This document shows, piece by piece, positions 1-29,995 of a DNA stretch of 29,995 nucleotides. The DNA is from a virus. Under the pieces are notes generated by a model. That model was not told the origin of the DNA, searched no databases, and saw only the letters and a program-made list of their open reading frames with translations. The stretch's first letter is position 1, and each line of letters starts with the position of its first letter. The DNA is taken from positions 1-29,995 of the IMG/VR virus record IMGVR_UViG_3300024433_000371. One strand, given 5' to 3'. A program made the translations under genes and the position numbers.

Positions 1-129
1 TACAGATATTATACCATACAAAGAATAAAAGGTATAGCCCAAAATACCCATAATGGGCAATAAACCACGGAACTGTGGCTATAAATCAGGTCAAAAAACC
101 ACTCTGTTTTTCTATCGTTTTGGGCAATT
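1..129. repeat. Left inverted terminal repeat
   Basis: The first 129 bases are an inverted copy of the last 129. Compared without gaps, 43 of the first 46 bases agree, as do 55 of the first 64. Beyond that, blocks stay in exact register: GGCT near 73-76, TCAAAAA near 91, GTTTTTC near 107 and TGGGCAATT at 121-129. The outermost bases are TACAGATATTATACC. Conservation in register without gaps suggests a functional terminus (replication or packaging) rather than a chance repeat. No gene lies in it, and its inner edge supplies the -35 of the first promoter. Confidence 0.9.
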
Positions 130-2979: not shown

Positions 2980-3529
2980 GTACCTCACCCAGGACGAACT
3001 CAAGAATCTCCTGAAGGTTATCGACAACAAGCGCGACAAGGCTATATTCCTCATTGCCTATCGGCACGGGCTCCGGGCTTCTGAGATAGGCATACTCAAG
3101 CCTAGCGACATTGATTTATCCCGAGGCCGAATCAGAATTGAGCGCCTTAAGCACTCCCAAGGTGGCGAGTTTCCTCTACAGCCTGACGAAATCAAGGCAA
3201 TCAAGGCATGGCTCAAGGAGAGGCGGGACAACAATCCTTGGCTATTCCCAAGCCGTAAAGGACAGCCAATCCACAGGCGCACCCTAGACTACATGATGAA
3301 GCACTATGGGAAGAAGGCCGACATACCCGAGGACAAATGCCACTTCCATGTCCTGAAGCATAGCATAGCCACTCACCTACTGGATGCCGGCGCCGACATC
3401 AGGTTTGTCCAAGACTGGATCGGCCACAAGAATATCCAGAACACGGTCGTATATGCCCATCTAAGCCATCACACTCAGGACGACCAGGCAAGGAAGTTTT
3501 TTGCCAGCCCGATGATAGTTAGTGGCTGA
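2957..3529 (+). CDS. Short tyrosine recombinase (catalytic domain only)
   Basis: At 190 residues this is just the catalytic domain of the tyrosine recombinase family, without the N-terminal core-binding domain. The active-site set is visible: Arg40 (HGLRASE), Lys65 (LKHSQGG), His131, His157 (IGHKN) and the nucleophile Tyr166 (VVYAHLS). The usual second Arg of HxLR is Lys134 (HVLKHS), a substitution that would alter chemistry. It may be active with a partner, act on a simple site such as a fim-type inversion or dimer-resolution site, or process the genome ends. It converges with the full-length integrase, overlapping it by 11 bases. Confidence 0.85.
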   Translation: MPNIKTIKYLTQDELKNLLKVIDNKRDKAIFLIAYRHGLRASEIGILKPSDIDLSRGRIRIERLKHSQGGEFPLQPDEIKAIKAWLKERRDNNPWLFPSRKGQPIHRRTLDYMMKHYGKKADIPEDKCHFHVLKHSIATHLLDAGADIRFVQDWIGHKNIQNTVVYAHLSHHTQDDQARKFFASPMIVSG

Positions 3530-4505
3530 GCCTCATATTGTCCACCGGACTCGCCTTCTCATGTGCCAATATAGCATCACCAACTCCCAAACTCTGCACA
3601 TATTTCCGCGTCATTTGCAAGGTCGTGTGACCCAACAAGCACTGAAGGTTGAACTCACCCATCCCGTTTCTGAGGCAGCTTACCGCAAAAGTATGCCTAA
3701 AGGTATGAGGTGAGCACCGGGCATCGGTAATCCCTGCCCTTTTGCCAAGGCGCTTGATTAGCGACTGGATTCCACGAGCCTTGATGGGCATACCCTGGTC
3801 GCTCACCCACAAACAGGGGAACTTGTCCTTTCGCATAAGTAAGTACCTCAGCATAGCCTTCTGGGTCTCCTTGCCTACCCTGACGAACCGTTCCTTCCTG
3901 CCCTTGCCCATGACTTTAATGATGCCGTTGTCGAAGTCAATGTCGGTTATCTGGATGGCCGCCAGCTCCGAAAGTCTCAAGCCAGTATCCAAGAAAGTGA
4001 GGATGATTGCCCGGTTGCGATAACCTCGAAAACCATCCTCGCCCAGCACTACAAGCATACGCCTTATGTCCTCCTGACTGAAAGGCTGGATCACCTCTTT
4101 CGGAACCCGGGGGGGTCGCATACGCTCAAAAGGGGTATGCTCCAATATGCCTTCTTGAACTAACCAGTTAAACAACCGGTTTACGCAGCCGTAATAATCA
4201 TGGACCGAGGACGCTTTGATGCGCTCCCTTAAAACAAGCAGAAATACCCGGACATGGTTGGGCGTGACATCGCTCGGTTCTTTTGCCCCCTGGGAATGGC
4301 AAAAGGCGATAAACGCACCGATCTTTTGTGCATAATCCTCAATAGTTCGTGGGGATAATTCGTTGACTTTGCAGGAAAGCAGAAATATTTTTAGTTGCCC
4401 GTGTAAAGTTGTATCTGATTTTATTATGTCAAGATAATTCAGATGCCCACTTTTCGTAGCTAGCCAATCGGGGCGATTTGTGATATTCAGATGCTCTAAA
4501 TCCAT
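3519..4505 (-). CDS. int: Tyrosine site-specific integrase (XerC/D-like)
   Basis: This 328-residue protein has the full two-domain layout: a SAM-like core-binding domain (about residues 30-125) and a catalytic domain (about 140-310). Catalytic residues are Arg177 (TGLRLSE), Lys201 or Lys204 in the beta-hairpin (GKGRKERF), His267 and Arg270 (HTFRH), His293 (LGH) and Tyr302 (RKYVQ). It should integrate and excise the element by cutting and rejoining att sites through a 3'-phosphotyrosine. The 3' half of a tRNA-Pro gene lies 38 bases upstream of its start, the usual int-attP arrangement. It sits between the repressor and the small recombinase. Confidence 0.92.
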   Translation of the reverse strand: MDLEHLNITNRPDWLATKSGHLNYLDIIKSDTTLHGQLKIFLLSCKVNELSPRTIEDYAQKIGAFIAFCHSQGAKEPSDVTPNHVRVFLLVLRERIKASSVHDYYGCVNRLFNWLVQEGILEHTPFERMRPPRVPKEVIQPFSQEDIRRMLVVLGEDGFRGYRNRAIILTFLDTGLRLSELAAIQITDIDFDNGIIKVMGKGRKERFVRVGKETQKAMLRYLLMRKDKFPCLWVSDQGMPIKARGIQSLIKRLGKRAGITDARCSPHTFRHTFAVSCLRNGMGEFNLQCLLGHTTLQMTRKYVQSLGVGDAILAHEKASPVDNMRLSH

Positions 4506-4542
4506 ACATTTTCGGGTCCCCCAAGCATTTTTAGCTTCAATA

Positions 4543-4584
4543 TCGGGGTGAGAGGATTCGAACCTCCGACCACCTGAACCCCAT
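4543..4584 (-). other. attP: attP core: 3' half of tRNA-Pro(GGG)
   Basis: On the minus strand these 42 bases read as tRNA positions 32 to 73: anticodon loop ATGGGGT (anticodon GGG, G37), anticodon stem half TCAGG, variable loop, a complete T arm GGAGG-TTCGAAT-CCTCT, acceptor strand CACCCCG and discriminator A73. G72 with A73 is the bacterial tRNA-Pro signature. The 5' half is absent: upstream bases do not form a D arm or the matching anticodon strand, and no CCA follows. Lying beside the integrase, it is best read as the phage attachment site that restores the host tRNA on integration. Confidence 0.88.
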
Positions 4585-4633
4585 CAATATGCCCCGAAAC
4601 CAAGCAATTTACCCGGTAGGAACCCTATCCCTT

Positions 4634-5230
4634 TCACATCTGCCTTAGTTTGCGTACATACTCGGTGATAACGCCATGGATGAGGACGCCTTCAAGATGG
4701 TATTTACCACTATTGTCAGCAAGCCATTGCCTCCCATCACTATCCTCACTGTACCGCTCCACCGCAATCTCCCCTTCCATCTCTACCAGAACTAGGTCGC
4801 CGTTAACTAGCGTGGTAGCACTATCGACAATGAGTGTGTCACCATCTCGTATTTCAGGCTCCAAAAAGAGTCCTTCAATCCTATAGCCACGAAGTGTCTC
4901 TGGCGGTATCTTGGCCCGAGTACTTACCACGTAGTCAATAGGTTCCATATCCTTAATTCCAGCATACACGGGGATATAAGCCTTCAGGCTTTGCTCCACT
5001 AGTTGCCATGTATCACTTGGTGCTGTCTCCCCTACGAGTTGTGCTAATGTGATATTCAATCCTCGTGCAAGTTTCTGAAGGGTATCCCGCCTAGGGTTTT
5101 TAGGGAAACCTAATTCCAATCTATAAATATACGTTTCGCTTATACCGGAAAGCTTGGACAAACGATATTTCGTTAGTCCTTTTGCCTCCCGGAATGCTTT
5201 TAGACGGGCAGCCAAGGTTTCTAAAGTCAC
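4634..5230 (-). CDS. CI/LexA-like repressor with an inactive peptidase domain
   Basis: This 198-residue protein has an N-terminal Cro/CI helix-turn-helix (about residues 5-65; TKYRLSKLSGISETYIYRLE) and a C-terminal S24 (LexA/UmuD) fold (about 85-190; EPEIRDGDTLIVD). In active members a Ser precedes the M-x-P segment and a Lys follows on a later strand. Here those places read GLFLEP and IAVERY (Glu158), so both catalytic residues seem lost and RecA-triggered self-cleavage is unlikely. It starts at GTG with AAGGGA upstream, faces the early operon across 5231-5406, and should be the lysogeny repressor. Confidence 0.88.
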   Translation of the reverse strand: MTLETLAARLKAFREAKGLTKYRLSKLSGISETYIYRLELGFPKNPRRDTLQKLARGLNITLAQLVGETAPSDTWQLVEQSLKAYIPVYAGIKDMEPIDYVVSTRAKIPPETLRGYRIEGLFLEPEIRDGDTLIVDSATTLVNGDLVLVEMEGEIAVERYSEDSDGRQWLADNSGKYHLEGVLIHGVITEYVRKLRQM

Positions 5231-6831: not shown

Positions 6832-7209
6832 ATGAAACTGACAAGAGCTGATGCAGGGAAAATCGGCGGCACCGTTACCTCTGAGGAATTTAAGAATCCC
6901 CTCAAGGTTGAAGCTGGGCGCAAAGGTGGGATGGCCACCCTAGAAAGACATGGCAGGGACCAGCTTGCCGAATGGGGCAAACTCGGAGGGCGCCCTCGGG
7001 CATTAACTCACGACGAAATCAGGCAGCAACAACTTCTTGAGCAAAACAATAATAAGGAGGTGATAACGGATCCCCCGGGAAGCCTGACTGAGCTCAAGAG
7101 GCTGCACAAACTGCGCCGCGGGTCGAACGGCATCTTTGAAACACCACAGGCAGGGATTGCCCAAAATACCCCAAGTGAGCAGTCCCTGCCGGAAAGGGAG
7201 CGAGTGTAA
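6832..7209 (+). CDS. KGG-repeat protein
   Basis: The N-terminal half holds three Gly-Gly repeats typical of the KGG (stress-induced, con-10-like) motif: GKIGGTVTSE near 11-20, AGRKGGMATLERHGRDQLAEWG near 28-49, and KLGGRPRALT near 50-59. Such motifs occur in short phage and bacterial proteins of unknown biochemical role, probably nucleic-acid or protein binding. The C-terminal 60 residues are polar and likely disordered. The start follows GAGGGGAG and directly abuts the upstream stop. Confidence 0.8.
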   Translation: MKLTRADAGKIGGTVTSEEFKNPLKVEAGRKGGMATLERHGRDQLAEWGKLGGRPRALTHDEIRQQQLLEQNNNKEVITDPPGSLTELKRLHKLRRGSNGIFETPQAGIAQNTPSEQSLPERERV

Positions 7210-9180: not shown

Positions 9181-9609
9181 ATGCCCAGAGGACCTAGAAG
9201 GTGGATAAAGATTTTTTGTTATGAAACTCTGCATGGCAGCGTTAGTTATCAGCTTACCGAGGCCGAGCAGTCGGTTTGGGTTAAATTATTGTGCTTCGCT
9301 GGGCTATGCGGGAATGAAGGCTTGATTGCTGACCATGATCTACACCCCTTCCCACATGCCTTCATAATCCACGAAATTCATACCGATGTAGATGTTTTTG
9401 AGGAGACATTGGAAAAGTGCAAAACCGAGGGACGCATTAGCGAGGATGGGCAGGGCATACGTATCGTAAACTGGGCTAAGTATCAAAGCGAGTACGAAAG
9501 GCAAAAGAAGTACCGGGGGAAAGAAGCTAGTCAGGACCCGGACAAGTTTGTGACAGGCAAATACGGACACATGGTTAGGCGAACAGGAGGCGATAATGAT
9601 GAAGAATAA
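9181..9609 (+). CDS. DnaD-like phage replication organiser (N-terminal domain)
   Basis: The protein follows the phage replisome-organiser N-terminal pattern: WIKIFCYETLHG, a winged-helix body with LTEAEQSVWVKLLCFAG, then PFPHAFIIHEIH, and the diagnostic end IRIVNWAKYQSEYERQKKYR (about residues 97-116). Family members bind origins and help load the host helicase. At 142 residues it has the DNA-binding part but little of the C-terminal helicase-contact domain. Iterons lie immediately upstream, which supports a role in initiating replication with host enzymes. ATAGGAGGG precedes the start. Confidence 0.75.
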   Translation: MPRGPRRWIKIFCYETLHGSVSYQLTEAEQSVWVKLLCFAGLCGNEGLIADHDLHPFPHAFIIHEIHTDVDVFEETLEKCKTEGRISEDGQGIRIVNWAKYQSEYERQKKYRGKEASQDPDKFVTGKYGHMVRRTGGDNDEE

Positions 9610-18179: not shown

Positions 18180-20627
18180 CTAGGAACTTTCACTTGCTAC
18201 CAATGTTATTGTCGCTGACATTTGCTGAGCATCATAACCACTTAGCGAAGTGGGCATATAGATTTTCAATCCCCAATCCTGTGTAGCATCCTCCGCTAAA
18301 TTACTCATCAAAGTGTTGTAGGTCTCGGTTTTTCTCACTATGACATCAAAGGTGTCATCCTCATCATCGAGTCCTGCTTTCAGCCCATAGATATTTTCGC
18401 CAGGAGTTGCCGTGTCAGATAGTGTCCAAGTATCATCGCCTCCCGTAGCATCCGTCCCGTAAATAACCACGTCAACCGCACAGTTTCCCGTGTTCTCTAT
18501 GGTGAAGTAGTTTATGGCTGTGTTGCTGGTGGTGTTTACCTCTAAAATGCCAAAGTTGTTGCTATCGGGAGTATTTGTTATCTCGGCAGATAACGTCTCC
18601 CATTCTCCCCAAGCTCCATGAGTAGGTTCTGGGTCAGTAAACTTGCGGATGATGAAATTATCTATCCATGTATCTTTACCTGCCTGATTTAGACCAACAA
18701 GTTGAATTATATCTGCAAGTGCTGTGTGTCTCATAGTGGCACCCTCTTTTATGAGTATGCCGTTATGCCAAATATCAAAGGTATGTGCCGTCCAGTCTAT
18801 ATTGTTGATTTCATACAAGTCCCAATCATCGGGAGTGGCAGTTACACCCGTATCACGGCTAGCCCCGTCGTAGTAATATATCTTCTCATCTGTCTCAGCA
18901 AATATCTGAATTAGATAGTCAGCATCTCCATGATAGAAAGTAAACCTCGCAGCATCTTCCTTGTATGCTCTCCATCTGATAGCATAATCTTCACCCGCAG
19001 TTTGGGATATTTCAGCCTTCGGCAGTGTTGCAGTCCCAACCAGCTTCATGCTCCTAGTGCCTTGATAGGCTTGACCAGTTGAGATTTCTACTGTTCCTTG
19101 TGCTTCTGTCCAATCACCACCTACTTCATCACCATCATTACCTCTCTCGAAATCATCGAAGGTTATGAAGGTATTAGCCCCATTGCTTGCTGAGCTCGCC
19201 CCACTCTTACCGCAATAAGCATAAATGGGGACTGTTCCAGATTCTAAGCTATCTTTTACTTCTAACCAAAAAACAGCAGGGTCAGCAGTTAAGTCCTCAC
19301 ACCAGTGGTCTAGCTCAGTTTCTCCATCATTATCAGTAAAACGAATGTCATTAGGGAAATCAGTGCAATGTCCATCTACATAGAGCACATTCTGAGGAAT
19401 CCAGCCATAACCAATAGAGGCATTGGTCTTGGCATTATCAGGACAGCCGTAATACCAGAAGCGGAGTTTCTCAGTTCCAATATCTTGCTTGAGAATATAG
19501 AAGCATTCAATGCGGTAATCATCCCATGAGCCTCCACTGCCTAATTTAACAATCGGATTTTCAGAACGTCTTGTCCAATTCACTAAATCTGTGCTGGTGG
19601 CAAAACCTAACTCATACATATTTGCAGCAGGACTATTATCATTACCGTTATAGCCTAACAGGTATTTGCCAGCCTCAATTTCTACAACTCTGGGGTTTGC
19701 AACATCTGCGCTATCCCAGCCACTTGGTGCCTGTTCAAATACAGGAGCGCCAGAGTTTAGGGCACTCCACGAAATACCATCAGCCGATGAACCTGCCCAA
19801 ATCTTAAAATGCCCAGCATCGGTTGTCTCATAAGCCTCAAAAAAGAAGTAATAGTTATCATTGGATGCAAGAATAACATGGGGAACACGAAAGCCAGCAG
19901 CACCCACATTTGTCCATGTGGTTTTATCAACAAGAGGGTTATTTACTGTATCTTTTGACCAACTAAGACCATCGGTAGAGGTAGCCCTGCCTAGCTTTCC
20001 TTCGCTGTTACCGCTAGAATCCACGCCAACATAAAACATCTCATAGTCGCTTGTACCATGTTTTATAACTCCAGCAACAACCACATGGACTTCATCAAAA
20101 TCATCCACACCTCCTACGCTCAAAACAGGGTTACTACCATATTTAGTCCATGTATAACCATCACTAGAAGTTGCACGTCCTACCTTAGCGTTGGTTCCAT
20201 CATCGCCACTGTAGTAGAGGATATAATTTCCATCTTCCTGGACGGCATTGCCGTCATCATCTACCATAAAAACAAAGTCGGTTATTTTGTTATCATCCCA
20301 CCCAGAGACACTAGGCTCTAAAACAGGATTGCTGCCATACTTGACTGCACCTTCGTACTGAATCTGCTCATTCCAACTATCGGTTACTTTGAGCTTTATC
20401 GGATAGCCAGTCCCAGCACCAGTAGCACCAGTTAGGTTGTGACTTTTGCGATAGCTCCAGCCTGAAAGCCAATCGGGATTAGCCAATACCTTCTGATCCG
20501 TCCCTATGGATAAGAAGTGCCATTGCGTCCCTTCCGGGAACGGGAATACGGCAGACAGTATAATCAGAGTACACATGACAGCCGTGATGGCTATGGCAAC
20601 AACTCTCAGAAGTGCCTTATTCCGCAT
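18180..20627 (-). CDS. Mosaic surface adhesin: split DUF2341, beta-propeller, LamG-like and filament-like domains
   Basis: 815 residues from ATG 20627 (GAGGAGG upstream). A signal peptide or anchor (about 1-30) is followed by the first part of a DUF2341 domain (about 50-82, WLSGWSYRKSHNL). A beta-propeller with four visible repeats of A-T-S-x-D-G-x-x-W...NP (about 90-412) follows, like GH43/GH32-type propellers. The rest of DUF2341 comes next (about 413-480, NDIRFTDNDGETELDHWC), then a LamG/concanavalin-like domain (about 485-665). The C-terminal domain (about 680-815) is related to the secreted protein at 17586. It is likely the host-binding fibre, anchored among the smaller subunits. It overlaps the ATPase end. 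Confidence 0.75.
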   Translation of the reverse strand: MRNKALLRVVAIAITAVMCTLIILSAVFPFPEGTQWHFLSIGTDQKVLANPDWLSGWSYRKSHNLTGATGAGTGYPIKLKVTDSWNEQIQYEGAVKYGSNPVLEPSVSGWDDNKITDFVFMVDDDGNAVQEDGNYILYYSGDDGTNAKVGRATSSDGYTWTKYGSNPVLSVGGVDDFDEVHVVVAGVIKHGTSDYEMFYVGVDSSGNSEGKLGRATSTDGLSWSKDTVNNPLVDKTTWTNVGAAGFRVPHVILASNDNYYFFFEAYETTDAGHFKIWAGSSADGISWSALNSGAPVFEQAPSGWDSADVANPRVVEIEAGKYLLGYNGNDNSPAANMYELGFATSTDLVNWTRRSENPIVKLGSGGSWDDYRIECFYILKQDIGTEKLRFWYYGCPDNAKTNASIGYGWIPQNVLYVDGHCTDFPNDIRFTDNDGETELDHWCEDLTADPAVFWLEVKDSLESGTVPIYAYCGKSGASSASNGANTFITFDDFERGNDGDEVGGDWTEAQGTVEISTGQAYQGTRSMKLVGTATLPKAEISQTAGEDYAIRWRAYKEDAARFTFYHGDADYLIQIFAETDEKIYYYDGASRDTGVTATPDDWDLYEINNIDWTAHTFDIWHNGILIKEGATMRHTALADIIQLVGLNQAGKDTWIDNFIIRKFTDPEPTHGAWGEWETLSAEITNTPDSNNFGILEVNTTSNTAINYFTIENTGNCAVDVVIYGTDATGGDDTWTLSDTATPGENIYGLKAGLDDEDDTFDVIVRKTETYNTLMSNLAEDATQDWGLKIYMPTSLSGYDAQQMSATITLVASESS

Positions 20628-21732
20628 GGTTTGCCTCCTCAAGCGGCTTGACGAGGTAGATAATGTCTTGCCCCCTATCAATCCTTGCGAGGTAACCGTT
20701 GCTATTGGTGGCCAACTTCTCTAGCCTAGCAACAAGTTTTTCAGCTGTTTTTCTATGTTTGCCAGTTAGATTTGCCATAGCTTTTTGTAACTGGTGGAGT
20801 GAAATGCGCCATCGGTTTGGTTCCTCCTCCAGCACCGCTTTGTTCGCTTGAGCCAATTCAATAAAGTCATTGCCCCAAGCTCGGTAGACGCCTTTCAAGA
20901 GAGTGTTAAACTGCTTAATCTCCCGCTGCTCCATTTCCAGATTATGCTCTCCACCTGTAAACATCCGGCCTTCGTCTATGTCGAACACCATCTTGTCGCC
21001 GACCATTTCTACCTTCCGTGCCCACTGCCATGGGTCAAATATCTGGTAGGTGTTATAGAGTGGCCATACTTTTTGGGCGTTACCCAGCGCAGTACGCCAC
21101 CTTCGCCCGGGATATCCGGTGAATAAGCCGCTGTAGTCCTCCTCGTCGTAGTAGAAACTGGTACCCTTGTATAGTCCGTGTTCTCTCCCCCAGTCGGTAT
21201 AGAAGGAATCATGGGCTTCCACCATGAGATCCACCTGGTTGAGTATGACGGAGGGAAGGGATGGGGATTGAGTATCCATAATCACCCGTAGACCCCGCTT
21301 CCTTAGCTGGTGGAGAAACTTATCGACCATGATGCTGCTGGTACTCATGGCGCGCTTTCTCTCCACCCATGTGTCTACCTCACCAAGCCCTATAACAGCT
21401 CCGGTGAGGCCCGGGTCAAAACTCAATAGAAACTGTAGGTCTAATGGTCTTGGCTGGTTGTCCACCCCTATCTTTTCAGGGTAGAGCTCATAATTGGTGA
21501 ACACTGGATAACCGTGTTTTAAGGCTAAAAGGAGCTTGCGCGCCACCCGGACAGACTTGCCACCTCCACGATGCCCCAGCACTAATTCTACATATTCTGT
21601 GGGGAACCAGTGCTTGAGTTCGTCCGGTAGGTTAACGACATCACGGTTGGTATCTTCAACAAAGTCCTCAAGGTCGACAAACTCCTCATGTCCGTTGTTT
21701 TCAATAGTAGCGAGAGCCTGTTCATTCATCAT
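20617..21732 (-). CDS. HerA/FtsK/Zot-type packaging or export ATPase
   Basis: 371 residues from ATG 21732, overlapping the previous gene. Walker A is GHRGGGKS (about residues 53-60). Walker B is GAVIGLGEVD (about 111-120), with the catalytic Glu and Asp. A further strand with Gln (VIMDTQSPSLPSVILNQVDL, about 150-170) resembles the sensor region of HerA/FtsK-type ATPases and inoviral Zot proteins. Such ATPases move DNA into capsids or extrude it through the membrane. A C-terminal winged-helix-like part follows (about 300-365; KAMANLTGKHRKTAEKLVARLEK). It lies in the middle of the membrane-protein operon and is the best hallmark of a virus here. Confidence 0.82.
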   Translation of the reverse strand: MMNEQALATIENNGHEEFVDLEDFVEDTNRDVVNLPDELKHWFPTEYVELVLGHRGGGKSVRVARKLLLALKHGYPVFTNYELYPEKIGVDNQPRPLDLQFLLSFDPGLTGAVIGLGEVDTWVERKRAMSTSSIMVDKFLHQLRKRGLRVIMDTQSPSLPSVILNQVDLMVEAHDSFYTDWGREHGLYKGTSFYYDEEDYSGLFTGYPGRRWRTALGNAQKVWPLYNTYQIFDPWQWARKVEMVGDKMVFDIDEGRMFTGGEHNLEMEQREIKQFNTLLKGVYRAWGNDFIELAQANKAVLEEEPNRWRISLHQLQKAMANLTGKHRKTAEKLVARLEKLATNSNGYLARIDRGQDIIYLVKPLEEANHAE

Positions 21733-22132
21733 CCACTTTCTTGTCCTTCTTAGGTTGCTTGCCTGCCCCAGCATACCCTTGCCCATCTCTACTAGGGTGA
21801 TATGCTGGCATGGACCCGGGCACTAGCATCCCGGAAAGTCCCATCAGAAACTCGTTTCGTGCAAAGCCCTCTACTCCCAATCCAGCCGCAGACATATTGA
21901 TAATGAATGCCTGTGTCGGTTTGTGGTCGCCGGCAAGCGAAGCGGCGAGGCCATAGTAGCCTCGTAGCTTTGCACTGATTCGACTTCTTAATAGCGTTCC
22001 GGCGATAGGAGCTAACCTGTCTGCGTCTGATGGCAGCCGTATAAGTTCCTTCGCGCCGCTCGCAGCACCGATAGGGGCATAGGTACCGAGGTCATCGTAC
22101 CTTCCCCCAGTTTGCCCTCTCTGCATACTCAT
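21722..22132 (-). CDS. Virion operon protein, 136 residues
   Basis: The only product between the tail-anchored proteins and the ATPase. Start ATG 22132 follows GGGAGG. It has a Gly/Arg-rich N-terminus (MSMQRGQTGGRYDDLG), a central helical part with weakly hydrophobic stretches (about 60-110; YGLAASLAGDH, NMSAAGLGVEGFARNEFLMGLSGML), and a basic-acidic tail (KQPKKDKKVDDE). It lacks a signal peptide, so it may be cytoplasmic or inside the particle. No family is recognised. Its position suggests an ATPase partner or scaffold. Confidence 0.6.
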   Translation of the reverse strand: MSMQRGQTGGRYDDLGTYAPIGAASGAKELIRLPSDADRLAPIAGTLLRSRISAKLRGYYGLAASLAGDHKPTQAFIINMSAAGLGVEGFARNEFLMGLSGMLVPGSMPAYHPSRDGQGYAGAGKQPKKDKKVDDE

Positions 22133-22136
22133 TGTT

Positions 22137-22625
22137 TTATCCTCCCATCATTACGACTATAAGGAAAACCGCCACTATGGAAGCCACAATGACGATTGTT
22201 GGCGTCATAATCTTCTTGGCCTGGTCTATAAGCGATGGCTTTGGTTCCGTTTCCAGCTCTATAATCTTTTCAATAGTACCGGCCAATGTGACTGCCCAGC
22301 CATAAAGTTGTATAGATGTATACCCAATCTGCCCCTTGGTAATGTCGGGACCGGGTTCTGGAAATACTAACGGGCTGTAATCCCCATTTAGAATTGCGAT
22401 GTAAAAGGGCCTATGATTCTCATTATAGAAGGTAAATGCCGTATCATCGCCTTTGCTTGCTTTCTGAATGGCCCTAATATCAGATTCGGCATCACTCCCT
22501 TCAATCACCTCAATACCCGTTTTCTTTATCAGGTATACCGTGTCTATGAGGTCATCGAGTTCTACTTGGGTCTCTTCCCTTACCTCGTCTTTTACTTTTT
22601 TGACTGCACTTCGTTTCTTTGCCAT
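22137..22625 (-). CDS. Tail-anchored protein, 162 residues
   Basis: Start chosen at ATG 22625 (MAKKRSAVKKVKDEV), just after the previous stop, preceded by GGGGTGATG. The body (about 1-135) is soluble and charged, with a longin- or PAS-like alternating pattern (DTAFTFYNENHRPFYIAILNGDY). A C-terminal helix (about 140-160; TPTIVIVASIVAVFLIVVMM) anchors it in the membrane with the body inside the cell or particle. The neighbouring protein has the same topology, so the two may form a matrix layer. No family is recognised. Confidence 0.65.
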   Translation of the reverse strand: MAKKRSAVKKVKDEVREETQVELDDLIDTVYLIKKTGIEVIEGSDAESDIRAIQKASKGDDTAFTFYNENHRPFYIAILNGDYSPLVFPEPGPDITKGQIGYTSIQLYGWAVTLAGTIEKIIELETEPKPSLIDQAKKIMTPTIVIVASIVAVFLIVVMMGG

Positions 22626-22629
22626 ATCA

Positions 22630-23091
22630 TCACCCCAATATCTTGGAGAACAGTCCACTCTGGAAGGCGAATAGGAGTGCTATGACGAGCAATCCACCGA
22701 TGGTAATTAGAGCCAGAGTCCACATCTTGTCGAACCTGTCTGCCAGGTCTATCCTCTGCACAGCCTTGGAGCACCCCTCGCTAAGAGCGCTGGTCTTAAT
22801 TTCCTCCTCTTTGTGCTGTACCTCTACCCAGTCAAGTGTTTTGAAACTAAACGGTCTGGCCATAGTTTCATATAGCAAACTGGTCAGGCCGAGGTGTGTC
22901 CTTTTACCTTTGGCAACCCTTGTGAAGTTGCCGATACATTCTGGAACCGAGTCGTATGCCATTAGATTCTTGGGGTCGAGCAAGAACGTACCTGTTGAAT
23001 CTAATGGACGGTGCATTGCGTTTTTGTCTTCACCAACCACAGGGCAGGTAATAGTAGTGGCGCCTTTGTTTTTTTTGCTAAAAAGCCCCAT
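22630..23091 (-). CDS. Tail-anchored protein, 153 residues
   Basis: Soluble N-terminal region (about 1-120) with a basic start (MGLFSKKNKG), a Cys and several Trp/Phe, then a C-terminal membrane helix (about 123-145; MWTLALITIGGLLVIALLFAF). The MGLFSKK opening resembles that of the last gene of the window (MGLFGKKK). GAGAGG precedes the start. A strong hairpin lies between this gene and the upstream multi-pass membrane protein, so it may be made in lower amount. Confidence 0.65.
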   Translation of the reverse strand: MGLFSKKNKGATTITCPVVGEDKNAMHRPLDSTGTFLLDPKNLMAYDSVPECIGNFTRVAKGKRTHLGLTSLLYETMARPFSFKTLDWVEVQHKEEEIKTSALSEGCSKAVQRIDLADRFDKMWTLALITIGGLLVIALLFAFQSGLFSKILG

Positions 23092-23113
23092 ATTATTCCT
23101 CTCGCTTATGAAA

Positions 23114-23156
23114 GCAACCCGACTCTAAGACTAATTCGCTCCAAGAGCCGGGTTGC
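23114..23156 (-). terminator. Hairpin attenuator within the virion operon
   Basis: On the minus strand, GCAACCCGGCTCT pairs with AGAGTCGGGTTGC in a 13-pair stem with one G-U pair and a 17-base loop, followed by TTTCAT. Weak U content argues for partial termination or message protection rather than a full stop. It separates the two multi-pass membrane protein genes from the downstream genes and could give higher expression of the former. Another CGGGTTGC copy lies at 23179-23186. Confidence 0.55.
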
Positions 23157-23187
23157 CTTCTCATAATTTGCTCCGTTACCGGGTTGC

Positions 23188-23691
23188 TCACATCTTGCTG
23201 CGAACTGACTTGAAGCCGATCATGCCTGTTACGAAGGTTATCCCGAGTACATAGAGCAACGGGATAAGCCCCAGGAAAGCACTTAGGCCGGTGTATGAAG
23301 CAATATCAGCACGTGCAAGCAGCGCGTCGGTTTGGGTTATGACTAGCGGGAGCATTATGACGGCGACGATTACCACAACAGTGGTGAGGATTGTGCTTTT
23401 AACGTCCATTTGCTGACCTTTATAGCCAATCCATATCAGGACGCCACCGAAAAGCACAAGGCTAATCATCATCAGCAATGGGAATATCGTGAGGATTGAC
23501 TCGCCACCGGGGTACTTGGTCCAGTTTACAGCACTAGCCCCGCCCGTAAGCAGTGGCCCCACCGTATCCATAGCGATGCCCAACATAATCAGGCCAACCA
23601 CTATGGAGATAACGCCGAGAATTATGGTTTTGAGGTTGGCTCCACCACCGCCGCCAAGCCCACTTCCGCTATCTCCTGTTTTTCTTGCCAT
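23188..23691 (-). CDS. Four-helix membrane protein, candidate major envelope protein
   Basis: 167 residues with a Gly-rich N-terminus (SGSGLGGGGGAN) and four predicted membrane helices (about 24-46, 69-90, 97-117 and 133-158). The last part, SYTGLSAFLGLIPLLYVLG, is clearly related to the end of the preceding gene's product (YTGFSAFLRMIPFICIIG), so the two are paralogues. Strong AAGGAGG site, second gene of the late operon, hairpin after it: all fit an abundant virion membrane protein of the type seen in spindle-shaped or pleomorphic viruses. That role is inferred, not shown. Confidence 0.65.
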   Translation of the reverse strand: MARKTGDSGSGLGGGGGANLKTIILGVISIVVGLIMLGIAMDTVGPLLTGGASAVNWTKYPGGESILTIFPLLMMISLVLFGGVLIWIGYKGQQMDVKSTILTTVVVIVAVIMLPLVITQTDALLARADIASYTGLSAFLGLIPLLYVLGITFVTGMIGFKSVRSKM

Positions 23692-23791
23692 CTCTAAACA
23701 CCTCCTTAATTGGTGTAGATTCTATCCCTGTCGACCTTCAGGGAGGCTTCAACTCCCTCCTATTATTAGGAAAGAGTTATACCCGTTACTC

Positions 23792-24232
23792 TTATCTGCC
23801 TTTGACACTGGAGAACAAAGCCCATAGAGCTGCTACCACCAGTCCTATAATGCAGATAAATGGAATCATTCGCAGGAAAGCAGAGAAGCCGGTGTACTGC
23901 TGGTTGGCCTCCCTTACATAACTGATTGCCAGTATTCTGGATGCCGATGCCTCCAGCCCGGTAACTATCACATCATAGGTGACCTCATTGTAGTCCATCA
24001 CTACAGGAGTGTCGTTTTCGTTGTCGGAAGTCGACGACAATTCGGTTAGATCACCGTAGTAATGTTCATAGCTCAGGGTCTCGGTTGTGTTTGTGACCCC
24101 AGCTCCGGTGGAAACATTATAATTCTCGGAATAGGGATCCGAAGCGGCCTCGTTCACCACATCGGGTAACAGAGTCGCCACCAACATGAGACCGACCACC
24201 AAGCCGACAATGGCAAGGAGTACCCTTTGCAT
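23792..24232 (-). CDS. Two-helix membrane protein, paralogue of the next gene
   Basis: First gene of the leftward late operon, 146 residues. An N-terminal signal anchor (about 3-22), an outside loop of about 90 residues rich in Thr, Ser, Asn and Tyr with several N-x-T/S sites, then a C-terminal helix (about 117-138) and a basic tail (SSVKGR). The C-terminal part is homologous to that of the protein at 23188. Its message appears leaderless. The signal-anchor codons contain copy B of the 39-base repeat, in what looks like its native frame. A short AGGGAG/CTCCCT hairpin (23740-23758) follows the gene. Confidence 0.65.
   Translation of the reverse strand: MQRVLLAIVGLVVGLMLVATLLPDVVNEAASDPYSENYNVSTGAGVTNTTETLSYEHYYGDLTELSSTSDNENDTPVVMDYNEVTYDVIVTGLEASASRILAISYVREANQQYTGFSAFLRMIPFICIIGLVVAALWALFSSVKGR
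24161..24199. repeat. 39-base direct repeat, copy B
   Basis: Identical to 15776-15814, same orientation, 8385 bases apart. Here it encodes [13 protein letters not shown] of a signal anchor, a sensible reading, so this is the probable original. Recombination between the copies would delete or circularise nearly the whole leftward virion operon. Confidence 0.9.
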
Positions 24233-24322
24233 TAGTTTTAGTGTAAAAGACTACTATCCATATTTTCATACGAACTTGGGGTGCGTGTGGTATTGTTTTT
24301 TATTTAGGGTTATACTATTTGT
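24233..24322. promoter_or_regulatory. Divergent late promoter region
   Basis: Two -10 boxes point outward: TACACT on the minus strand (24240-24245), 7 bases before the ATG of the leftward operon, and TATACT on the plus strand (24311-24316), 6 bases before the ATG of the rightward operon. Neither has a recognisable -35 at 16-18 bases, unlike the early promoters, so an activator probably binds in the 24246-24310 interval. Both messages would be leaderless. Confidence 0.6.
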
Positions 24323-24619
24323 ATGCCATTGGGTACTTCAAGGGCTGGCCGTCCATGTCCAGTGGCCGTAATACCTTTCCAAAATGAGAGGAAGGTAGGA
24401 CTACTGGAAGAGTTCTATGGTGTCTGTGCCGACTTCCACTACCGAGAAATCATGGCGGTAAGCCGAGCCTTGCGGGTCACTCCCCGAGCAGTTGAATCCT
24501 GGAAGTACCGAGAGAAGTTCCCTAGATGGGATATCGCTGTAGATGTGATTGAGTGGGCAAACCAAGGCAAACCAGTAGTAATGGTATCCCCATCACAAAC
24601 CATAACCAATATGATGTAG
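24323..24619 (+). CDS. Helix-turn-helix regulator, 98 residues
   Basis: Contains IMAVSRALRVTPRAVESWKYREKFPRWDIAVDVIEW (about residues 43-78), a Cro-type helix-turn-helix in which VTPRAVESWKYRE supplies the recognition helix and the WDIAVDVIEWA closing helix resembles phage regulators. It is the first gene of the rightward late operon and lies next to the divergent promoters that lack -35 boxes, so it may be their activator or autoregulator. Message probably leaderless. Confidence 0.7.
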   Translation: MPLGTSRAGRPCPVAVIPFQNERKVGLLEEFYGVCADFHYREIMAVSRALRVTPRAVESWKYREKFPRWDIAVDVIEWANQGKPVVMVSPSQTITNMM

Positions 24620-24642
24620 ATATGTTTTAAAGGAGGAAACTT

Positions 24643-24846
24643 ATGGTAGTAGCTGTTAAAGAAAAAATTGTCTCCAAAGAAGAACCTCAGAAAAACACTG
24701 AGCCGACATTTCGTAATTCTGATGAAATGACCATTGAAGAACTCACTGACCCAGATTACCGGTTAAAGCAGGTTGTAAAACATTTTGGTAGTAATAAAGA
24801 AAGTACACCAGCAATCTGTAGTAAGTGCCACCATTGTCGGCGATAA
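24643..24846 (+). CDS. Small charged protein, 67 residues
   Basis: Strong AAAGGAGG site 6 bases before ATG 24643. The first 55 residues are charged and probably disordered or helical (MTIEELTDPDYRLKQVVKHFG). It ends in a Cys-rich patch (CSKCHHCRR) that could bind a metal as half a zinc site. No family is recognised. It precedes the envelope genes of the rightward operon. Confidence 0.6.
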   Translation: MVVAVKEKIVSKEEPQKNTEPTFRNSDEMTIEELTDPDYRLKQVVKHFGSNKESTPAICSKCHHCRR

Positions 24847-24863
24847 CTGAGGGAGATAAGACT

Positions 24864-25847
24864 TTGATTAGAAAACTCGCAAGGTGGTTTCTACCACTCA
24901 CCCTTATAGCCCTTTTGGGCATATTTGCTATTGCCGCTCCGGTTCTTGCCTCGATTCCGCAGCCCACCATCCTTGAAATCCAGGAAATAGCTGCTTATGA
25001 AAATGCCAGAGAGGACGGCGACCATCTCTACATCGTAAAATACTATATTGCGATAAACTCCACTTATAATGCTGATGACCTATTTATCTTTCGTCTTCTG
25101 GACGAGGACGATGATGAGATTGCCCATGCAACCCCATATCCCTTCAATAATTATGGTTATGGGCTTGGCGTGGTGGCTTTCTACCTTGATGCAGACGAGG
25201 CGCCGGACTGGGAAGACAACCTATCGGTTCAGGTGATAGGAAATCCCCTTGTCGATTGGGACGGCGACCCGCCTACTGCGAGTTCCAGCCTCATCGACTG
25301 GCATACTGATACCACTGGGCAAATACAGCAGCTTGTCTCTATCAAGGTGATGTCCTTGGCCAGCGAGCTTGAGCGAAACTGGGGTGTGGAGATGACGACC
25401 ACGACTCAGGGTGTGACAATACTAAGCGATACTGGGGCAGCTTACTTCCTTAGAATAGTGCCGTACCTCGCCACGGTAGCGCCGTATGTGCTGGGACAGT
25501 ACACCTTTGAGCCGGACTATCCTGTGGACGAAAAGCCGCCTAGCGATGACTATGCCACCTCACTTGTGACGGCGATAGAGGGTACGATCTTCGACTTGAG
25601 CGGTCCCGCAAGGTCTATGGGCATAACCTGGGGGGCATTGACCGCGGGAATCTACTACGCCTTTGTGATAGCATTTTTTGTCATGTTGATAGCAAAGAGG
25701 GGGTTGAAGAAGGGGATGATGCTGTTGCTGTGGCCATTCGTGATAGCGGGTGCCTTCATTGGTGTTCCGCTGATAGTAACGATATTGGGCGGTTTCCTTT
25801 GTCTGCTTAGCACGAGTTGGTTAATCTACAAGGGAGTTTCAGGATAA
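24864..25847 (+). CDS. Membrane protein with large outside domain, 327 residues
   Basis: Start chosen at TTG 24864, which has GAGGGAG upstream and gives a proper signal peptide (LIRKLARWFLPLTLIALLG, about 1-29); an earlier in-frame GTG overlaps the previous gene. An outside domain (about 30-235) with a beta pattern and acidic loops (LLDEDDDEI) is followed by about three C-terminal membrane helices (about 247-327). The layout matches virion glycoproteins. The stop overlaps the ATG of the next gene (TAATG). Confidence 0.65.
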   Translation: MIRKLARWFLPLTLIALLGIFAIAAPVLASIPQPTILEIQEIAAYENAREDGDHLYIVKYYIAINSTYNADDLFIFRLLDEDDDEIAHATPYPFNNYGYGLGVVAFYLDADEAPDWEDNLSVQVIGNPLVDWDGDPPTASSSLIDWHTDTTGQIQQLVSIKVMSLASELERNWGVEMTTTTQGVTILSDTGAAYFLRIVPYLATVAPYVLGQYTFEPDYPVDEKPPSDDYATSLVTAIEGTIFDLSGPARSMGITWGALTAGIYYAFVIAFFVMLIAKRGLKKGMMLLLWPFVIAGAFIGVPLIVTILGGFLCLLSTSWLIYKGVSG

Positions 25848-26590
25848 TGTCTAAACGGCTATACCTATCGGTTGTATTGGCGGTAGTGATTATACTCGCC
25901 ATGGTAGTGCCTGCCCTTGCGGGATACTACACATACCTCATAACGGAGAATACCGGTACGGACTACACCCAACTCGCAATGAACCTCACCCTTGATGTTG
26001 ACTATCTTGTCGATAACGGCTACATCAGTTCTACTGGACTGGATACGAGGGTTACGGATGCCAGCTATACCGTTCTGCCGCATATGCTGGCTGACGACAA
26101 AGTGATGTGGGTGTCCGACCTGGAGGGCAATAGCACCGCACAATTCATCTTCTTCACAGGGCAGGATGCCATTGATAGCTTCCCTACCATCACTGGCCAT
26201 GGTGGGTATGTTACCGTACCAGACAATGAGGTTCTGGAGCCGGGAGGGATATTCGCCTTCGGCATAGTGGGGTATGTGGATACCTCGGCTGGAGCCAATA
26301 AAAACATAATAAGGAAGGATGACGCAGTGGTATTCAATGTGACTGATGATGAGGAGCTTACCTTTGCCATTACTGGTGGCAATTCGCTGGTGGCCTCCAA
26401 TGTGACAGCTGACTACATGACGATAATGGTCTATTGCGATGGCTACGAACTTTGGATGGAGATAGACGATATTGAGCAGGATAGAGTGGTAGCGTCTTCC
26501 ATACCGGACACAGCAAACAACTGGACCCTGTTCGAGAACGATGTCATGCCTTATGTCTCCTATTATGGAGAGTGGGTGGGAACAGAATGA
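25847..26590 (+). CDS. Secreted LamG-like protein, 247 residues
   Basis: Starts at ATG 25847 overlapping the previous stop. Signal peptide (about 1-25, cleaved near ALAGYY), then LPHMLADDKVMWV and a jelly-roll domain with LamG/concanavalin-type strands (about 85-240): GYVTVPDNEVLEPGGIFAFG, NIIRKDDAVVFNV, MTIMVYCDGYELWMEID. Such domains bind sugars or proteins at surfaces and are common in phage host-binding proteins. No C-terminal anchor, so it probably associates with the membrane proteins on either side. Confidence 0.7.
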   Translation: MSKRLYLSVVLAVVIILAMVVPALAGYYTYLITENTGTDYTQLAMNLTLDVDYLVDNGYISSTGLDTRVTDASYTVLPHMLADDKVMWVSDLEGNSTAQFIFFTGQDAIDSFPTITGHGGYVTVPDNEVLEPGGIFAFGIVGYVDTSAGANKNIIRKDDAVVFNVTDDEELTFAITGGNSLVASNVTADYMTIMVYCDGYELWMEIDDIEQDRVVASSIPDTANNWTLFENDVMPYVSYYGEWVGTE

Positions 26591-29157: not shown

Positions 29158-29402
29158 AGCGCAAGTGGATAAGGCTACAGGAAATCGGGCTGTTGCAGTT
29201 GCTTGCTATCCCGGTTGTGATTCTGGTTATTGTGCTTGTTAAGGGGTTCACAATTACGGGACCCAGTGCTGCTTTCACCACAAACCTGATTATTCTGACA
29301 ACATTCCTTTTGGCCACCAGCGGGTACATCTGCTTGAAAATAGGGGATGAGGAGCGGGTGAAGTTGCGAGACAAGGAAAATGGCATTTCCCAAAAGGACT
29401 GA
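29118..29402 (+). CDS. Two-helix membrane protein, 94 residues
   Basis: Start chosen at ATG 29118 (MATVDTESGQNEIERKW), which follows AAGGTGG; an earlier in-frame GTG at 29106 is less likely. Charged N-terminal 25 residues, then two membrane helices (about 28-46 and 55-74), and a charged tail (DEERVKLRDKENGISQ). It overlaps its upstream neighbour. No family is recognised. Confidence 0.6.
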   Translation: MATVDTESGQNEIERKWIRLQEIGLLQLLAIPVVILVIVLVKGFTITGPSAAFTTNLIILTTFLLATSGYICLKIGDEERVKLRDKENGISQKD

Positions 29403-29403
29403 A

Positions 29404-29667
29404 ATGGGCTATAAAATTGAAGCTAAAAGGAGGTGGCCACGCCGAAAAAGCCAACTCCGCAAGACGGCCGATAAAGCCAAGGAAAGGCTACAACTCCTAG
29501 ATAGAATGATGTATAGTCTTTTCAAGGCCCATCCGGTTATCCCTACCATAGAATACGCCTTCAGGCTTATAGGTGACTACGCTGTGGTTAGTGATTCGGA
29601 AAGAACCTACTGCGAGGATGTATTAAGGCACTTGTATACACAGGCTTACGCTAGGTATGCCAAATAG
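29404..29667 (+). CDS. Small basic helical protein, 87 residues
   Basis: Start set at ATG 29404 (MGYKIEAKRRWPRRKSQL), preceded by AAAGGA; an in-frame ATG at 29380 overlaps the previous gene. Very basic N-terminus, then helices (KERLQLLDRMMYSLFKAHP, EYAFRLIGDYAVV, RTYCEDVLRHLYTQAYARYAK). The pattern fits a compact DNA- or partner-binding protein. No family is recognised. Confidence 0.55.
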   Translation: MGYKIEAKRRWPRRKSQLRKTADKAKERLQLLDRMMYSLFKAHPVIPTIEYAFRLIGDYAVVSDSERTYCEDVLRHLYTQAYARYAK

Positions 29668-29868: not shown

Positions 29869-29995
29869 TTGCCCATTACAGTTGAAAAACCACCCTGATT
29901 TTTGATGCCTTGCAAAGCCAACACGGCTCACTTTATTGCACAAAATATCTATTCTGGGCTATACCTTTTCTTTTTTGTATGGTATAATATCTGTA
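29867..29995. repeat. Right inverted terminal repeat
   Basis: Inverted copy of 1-129 (details there). The TGGGCAATT block lies at 29867-29875 on the minus strand and overlaps the stop of the last gene. The terminal 15 bases read GGTATAATATCTGTA, an extended -10-like element pointing off the end. Joined end to end, the two termini would form a perfect palindrome with 22-base arms. Confidence 0.9.

Follow-up and report, generated by a model that had tools for sequence, protein, structure and literature searches.

Given that this locus places an integrase gene beside a fragment of a bacterial tRNA gene in a viral contig whose two ends form an inverted repeat, we asked what form of the genome would be the substrate for integration. 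The window (the whole stretch of DNA that was analyzed) is a virus record of 29,995 nt, which a sequence-only reading had taken for a linear genome that would have to circularize, or have its inverted ends joined, before inserting into the host. Our analysis favors a circular genome, with integration from a circular double-stranded DNA form into the host tRNA-Pro(GGG) gene and inverted contig ends that reflect a break in the assembly; we give this reading a probability of about 86%. If the genome is circular, no premise of linear inverted ends is needed and the apparent oddity of the locus dissolves, since integration of a circular molecule requires no special step.

The repressor-attP-integrase module

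Inspection of the locus confirmed that an integrase adjoins a 42-base 3' half of tRNA-Pro(GGG), as the sequence-only reading had described, with 37 nt separating the end of the attP core from the start of int (Table 1). ARAGORN detected no complete tRNA in the window. The integrase resembles XerD and its relatives in the PDB, its only relatives among phage records fall below 60% identity, and the catalytic residues R177, K201, H267, R270, H293, and Y302 can all be read from its sequence. With a repressor gene on the opposite side of attP, positions 3519-5230 are best explained as a lysogeny module, ordered repressor-attP-int, of a temperate virus infecting Dehalococcoidia or closely related Chloroflexota.

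This attachment module is real and ordinary, and it represents the standard arrangement for elements that target tDNA. In tyrosine-integrase elements of this type (Islander), a tDNA fragment lies in attP beside int, integration restores the tRNA gene, and the anticodon is among the named crossover subsites (PMC4383910). The window has the same tDNA fragment beside int, with the crossover assigned to the anticodon subsite, and differs from these elements in no matter of principle; the host group and the virus are uncharacterized.

The window also encodes a second, shorter tyrosine recombinase, and in both this gene and L009:18303-18875 Lys replaces the second catalytic Arg, within the motif HVLKHS.

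Table 1. Coordinates of the features discussed within the 29,995-nt window
Feature	Position	Strand	Basis or remark
Inverted repeat, left arm	1-64	+	
28-nt palindromic element ATTGCYCA-N12-TGRGCAAT, inside left arm	34-61	+	
28-nt palindromic element, further copies	2267-2294, 2741-2768, 7156-7183, 29385-29412		
Short tyrosine recombinase, 190 aa	2957-3529	+	Pfam; catalytic domain only
Tyrosine integrase, 328 aa	3519-4505	-	Pfam Phage_integrase E=1.6e-32 and SAM-like N-terminal domains; PHROG match
TTGAAGCTAAAA motif between attP core and int	4528-4540	-	May bind integrase or a factor
attP core, 3' part of tRNA-Pro(GGG)	4543-4584	-	42 nt, anticodon loop to base 73
Repressor, Cro/C1-type HTH and S24 peptidase	4634-5230	-	Pfam
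DnaD/replisome-organiser-like protein	9181-9609	+	Pfam Phage_rep_org_N E=2.5e-6, above cut-off
Zot-like ATPase	20617-21786	-	Pfam Zot E=0.004, below cut-off
28-nt palindromic element, inside right arm	29935-29962	-	
Inverted repeat, right arm	29932-29995	-	

Host sites and integrated relatives

To find host sites we used a pattern of the core that left one variable-loop base free and allowed A or G (R) at one T-loop base. It matched 73 loci in bacterial genome contigs, 66 of which lie in Chloroflexota-labelled records, mostly Dehalococcoidia (titled Dehalococcoidia, Dehalococcoidales, or Chloroflexi/Chloroflexota). A manual count gave ~56 complete tRNA-Pro(GGG) genes, 14 orphan 3' parts, and 3 loci truncated by a contig end; matches of this number and kind show that the viral tRNA copy is not a product of chance. 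The orphan 3' parts mark an element that is, or once was, integrated. Six of the orphan loci (L029, L035, L038, L051, L062, and L071) are preceded by a common stretch like AGAAAGGAGGCAAGCGGT, and these represent another element family at the same tRNA-Pro site.

In Dehalococcoidia, several complete tRNA-Pro(GGG) genes are directly followed by an integrase gene whose product shares 40-45% identity with the window's integrase (L016/L084, L040, L059, and L075). Across the class, 51 of 393 genomes hold an integrase homologue at E<=1e-45, and a tRNA gene lies within 600 nt at 20 of 28 integrase loci (L116-L143), with Pro, Ile, Lys, Val, Ala, Gly, Met, and Thr represented. At several of these integrase loci the motif AGCTAAA follows the tRNA immediately on its 3' side, as it does in the window.

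Using the Zot-like ATPase as a marker for relatives, we recovered two virus contigs, G001 (44,076 nt) and G002 (27,339 nt). G001 encodes an integrase 81% identical and a repressor 66% identical to those of the window, and it matches 41 of the 42 nucleotides of the attP core within a region that is 78-82% identical; the exact core sequence had no match in viral contigs. G002 lacks the window's integrase and attP and carries a copy of the short recombinase that is 71% identical and has the same Lys. It is very unlikely that the attP is a relic and that the integrase uses another site: an integrated copy of exactly this virus was found neither by an ATPase scan of bacterial genome contigs nor in the 393 genomes of the class, as a relic would allow, but the core is conserved at 41/42 where the region is 78-82% identical, and integrases homologous to the window's occur beside this tRNA.

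Closer inspection of the class revealed the Zot-like ATPase family in 5 of the 393 genomes. In G112, a provirus of ~22.4 kb (810498-832.9 kb) has inserted into tRNA-Lys(TTT), whose 3' part bounds it, and the integrase encoded next to the tRNA shares 46% identity with the window's integrase. In G027, a provirus of 25.65 kb (955558-981208) occupies tRNA-Ile(GAT), and its distal end carries a perfect repeat of 51 nt. Its repressor and int genes each adjoin a different att site, so that closing it to a circle gives the order repressor-att-int, the same as in the window. The G112 provirus closes to this order too, and in both proviruses a relative of the window's repressor lies beside att. A virus contig, L144, shows this order as well: an S24-like repressor, a tRNA-Ile 3' part (both read from sequence), and an integrase sharing 45% identity with the window's. 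An integrated copy beginning at the inverted repeats, named in the sequence-only reading as evidence against its proposal, was not seen; the relatives begin at tRNA fragments. Collectively, good support for the proposed integration into tRNA-Pro(GGG) comes from the conservation of attP in G001, the presence of attB in Dehalococcoidia, related integrases located at that tRNA, and proviruses of relatives that have tRNA sequence at their boundaries.

A further insertion in G112 (G112:C1 240759-285481; L097, L098) comprises two related provirus copies in tandem inside a 483-codon open reading frame. Joining the flanks restores the 483-codon frame across a shared 11-nt core, TCTGATTAAAA, which corresponds to the anticodon portion of the tRNA site, and from this shared core the G112 relative is seen to cross over in the anticodon region. 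The Salmonella genomic island SGI1 (PMC2297512) is likewise known to form tandem arrays and to use a secondary attachment site, both of which the G112 relative shows; SGI1, however, is a mobilizable island rather than a virus, and the secondary site in G112 lies inside an open reading frame. Between the G112 tandem copies, a 1,270-bp segment bearing the repressor is inverted and is bounded by TCTGATT/AATCAGA.

In the mechanism that we propose, the virus would integrate from a circular double-stranded form. Int would carry out recombination between attP and the tRNA-Pro(GGG) gene of the host, close to the anticodon, and the 3' tRNA segment supplied by the virus would restore the host gene. The tRNA-bounded proviruses demonstrate this mechanism for the family, and we infer it for the virus studied here. 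This exact virus would presumably integrate in this way, with its own ends joined.

Origin of the inverted contig ends

The contig ends form an inverted repeat of 64 nt at 86% identity in which the outer 22 nt are perfect, with similarity decaying over ~175 nt; a search of viral contigs for the exact 22-nt tip sequence gave no match. The contig begins and stops exactly at the repeat tips, as would be expected of true termini. This would suit a linear virion genome whose inverted termini are joined or recombined into a circle, leaving a palindrome, before Int acts on the tRNA gene; nevertheless, to regard the contig ends as genome termini is an interpretation and not an observation, and several findings make such a linear genome unlikely. 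G002 is a circular map, with a direct terminal repeat of 99 nt. G001 passes from homologues of the genes at the window's right end into a homologue of its left end within ~500 nt, and this internal stretch aligns with the window's left end (score 87; shuffles <=41) and with the inverted right end (score 55; shuffles <=46). Both ends of G001 are open, run in the same direction, and fall in one long ORF, as expected if a circle had been opened inside a gene, and contig ends fall at different places in the window, G001, and G002. Thus the relatives are circular maps with their ends elsewhere and continuous across this place, and the linear genome assumed by the sequence-only reading is not upheld, the window's ends being internal in G001.

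The gene content of the window argues in the same direction: it includes a DnaD-like replication protein, and Pfam searches of its 47 proteins returned no match to DNA polymerase B or to protelomerase; no terminal protein was found among them either, a class that profiles cover poorly. The repeat tips also resemble outward copies of a promoter-like site at 138-158, which would be odd at a true end; the promoter is a consensus-only assignment, and shuffled sequences reach a comparable degree of similarity. A short frame follows the left-end promoter-like site at 167-382, with one in-frame TAG near 260 (read from sequence). The tectiviruses PRD1 and Bam35 and phage N15 share inverted repeats at their ends with this contig; in contrast to them, the window has no polymerase B, terminal protein, or protelomerase match, and its relatives are circular maps.

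When the ends were joined in silico, they produced a near-perfect 128-nt palindrome with a perfect 44-nt centre, predicted to form a strong hairpin. Such a palindrome could serve as the telomere site if the replicon were linear and closed by hairpins in the manner of N15, yet we consider this very improbable and the least likely of the alternatives, given the missing protelomerase match, the circular maps of the relatives, and the redundancy of an integrase and attP in such a replicon. Returning to the circular genome, the inverted "termini" are most likely two head-to-head copies of an intergenic element at one place of the circle. G001 has no palindrome at the corresponding place, which indicates an inverted arrangement specific to this genome. 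The junction palindrome that the sequence-only reading had predicted is borne out in silico for this contig but not in G001, and no integrated copy of this exact virus was found. The joined-end palindrome plausibly explains the assembly break, but a perfect 44-nt palindrome alone should not stop a long-k-mer assembly, which counts against this account; assembly may have stopped at the palindrome between the facing element copies or at a short missing segment between them. The inverted ends of this contig should not be taken for genome termini.

The virus group and its other genes

For a virus group unmatched among the phage records searched, and of which a literature search found no description, these findings supply a host assignment, Dehalococcoidia, and a precisely defined attachment site. 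The attachment site and integrase could potentially serve genetics in a bacterial class with few tools.

The ATPase had no match in phage records, and an ATPase scan of bacterial genome contigs found no relative. The best PDB fold match of its predicted model (mean pLDDT 63) is the Zot domain 2r2a (E=5e-4). It belongs to a set of genes at 20617-26590, together with small membrane proteins and a conserved 340-aa surface protein, with relatives in G145, G112, G027, G138, and G031; this set apparently marks an undescribed group of temperate Dehalococcoidia viruses. A structural comparison of the 340-aa protein revealed no clear relative. The Zot-like ATPase is a possible point of resemblance to Inoviridae, but the group differs in its genomes of 22-44 kb, in which no rolling-circle replication protein was found; on these grounds, and with the Pfam Zot match below cut-off, we did not adopt a placement in Inoviridae. 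The DnaD-like protein fits replication by the host replisome.

The 28-nt palindromic element occurs 12 times in the window and G001 together (6 in G001), always at a spacing of 12, as compared to ~0-0.8 matches per genome in shuffled sequence; no copy at this spacing was present in the other relatives. A role for these elements as sites of the short recombinase is weakened by G001, which has the elements without that recombinase, and by G002, where the reverse holds. The S24 repressor was considered as a ligand as well, and its gene's own promoter region contains no copy of the element. The element is a candidate operator or recombination site, and its copies lie mostly before small accessory genes.
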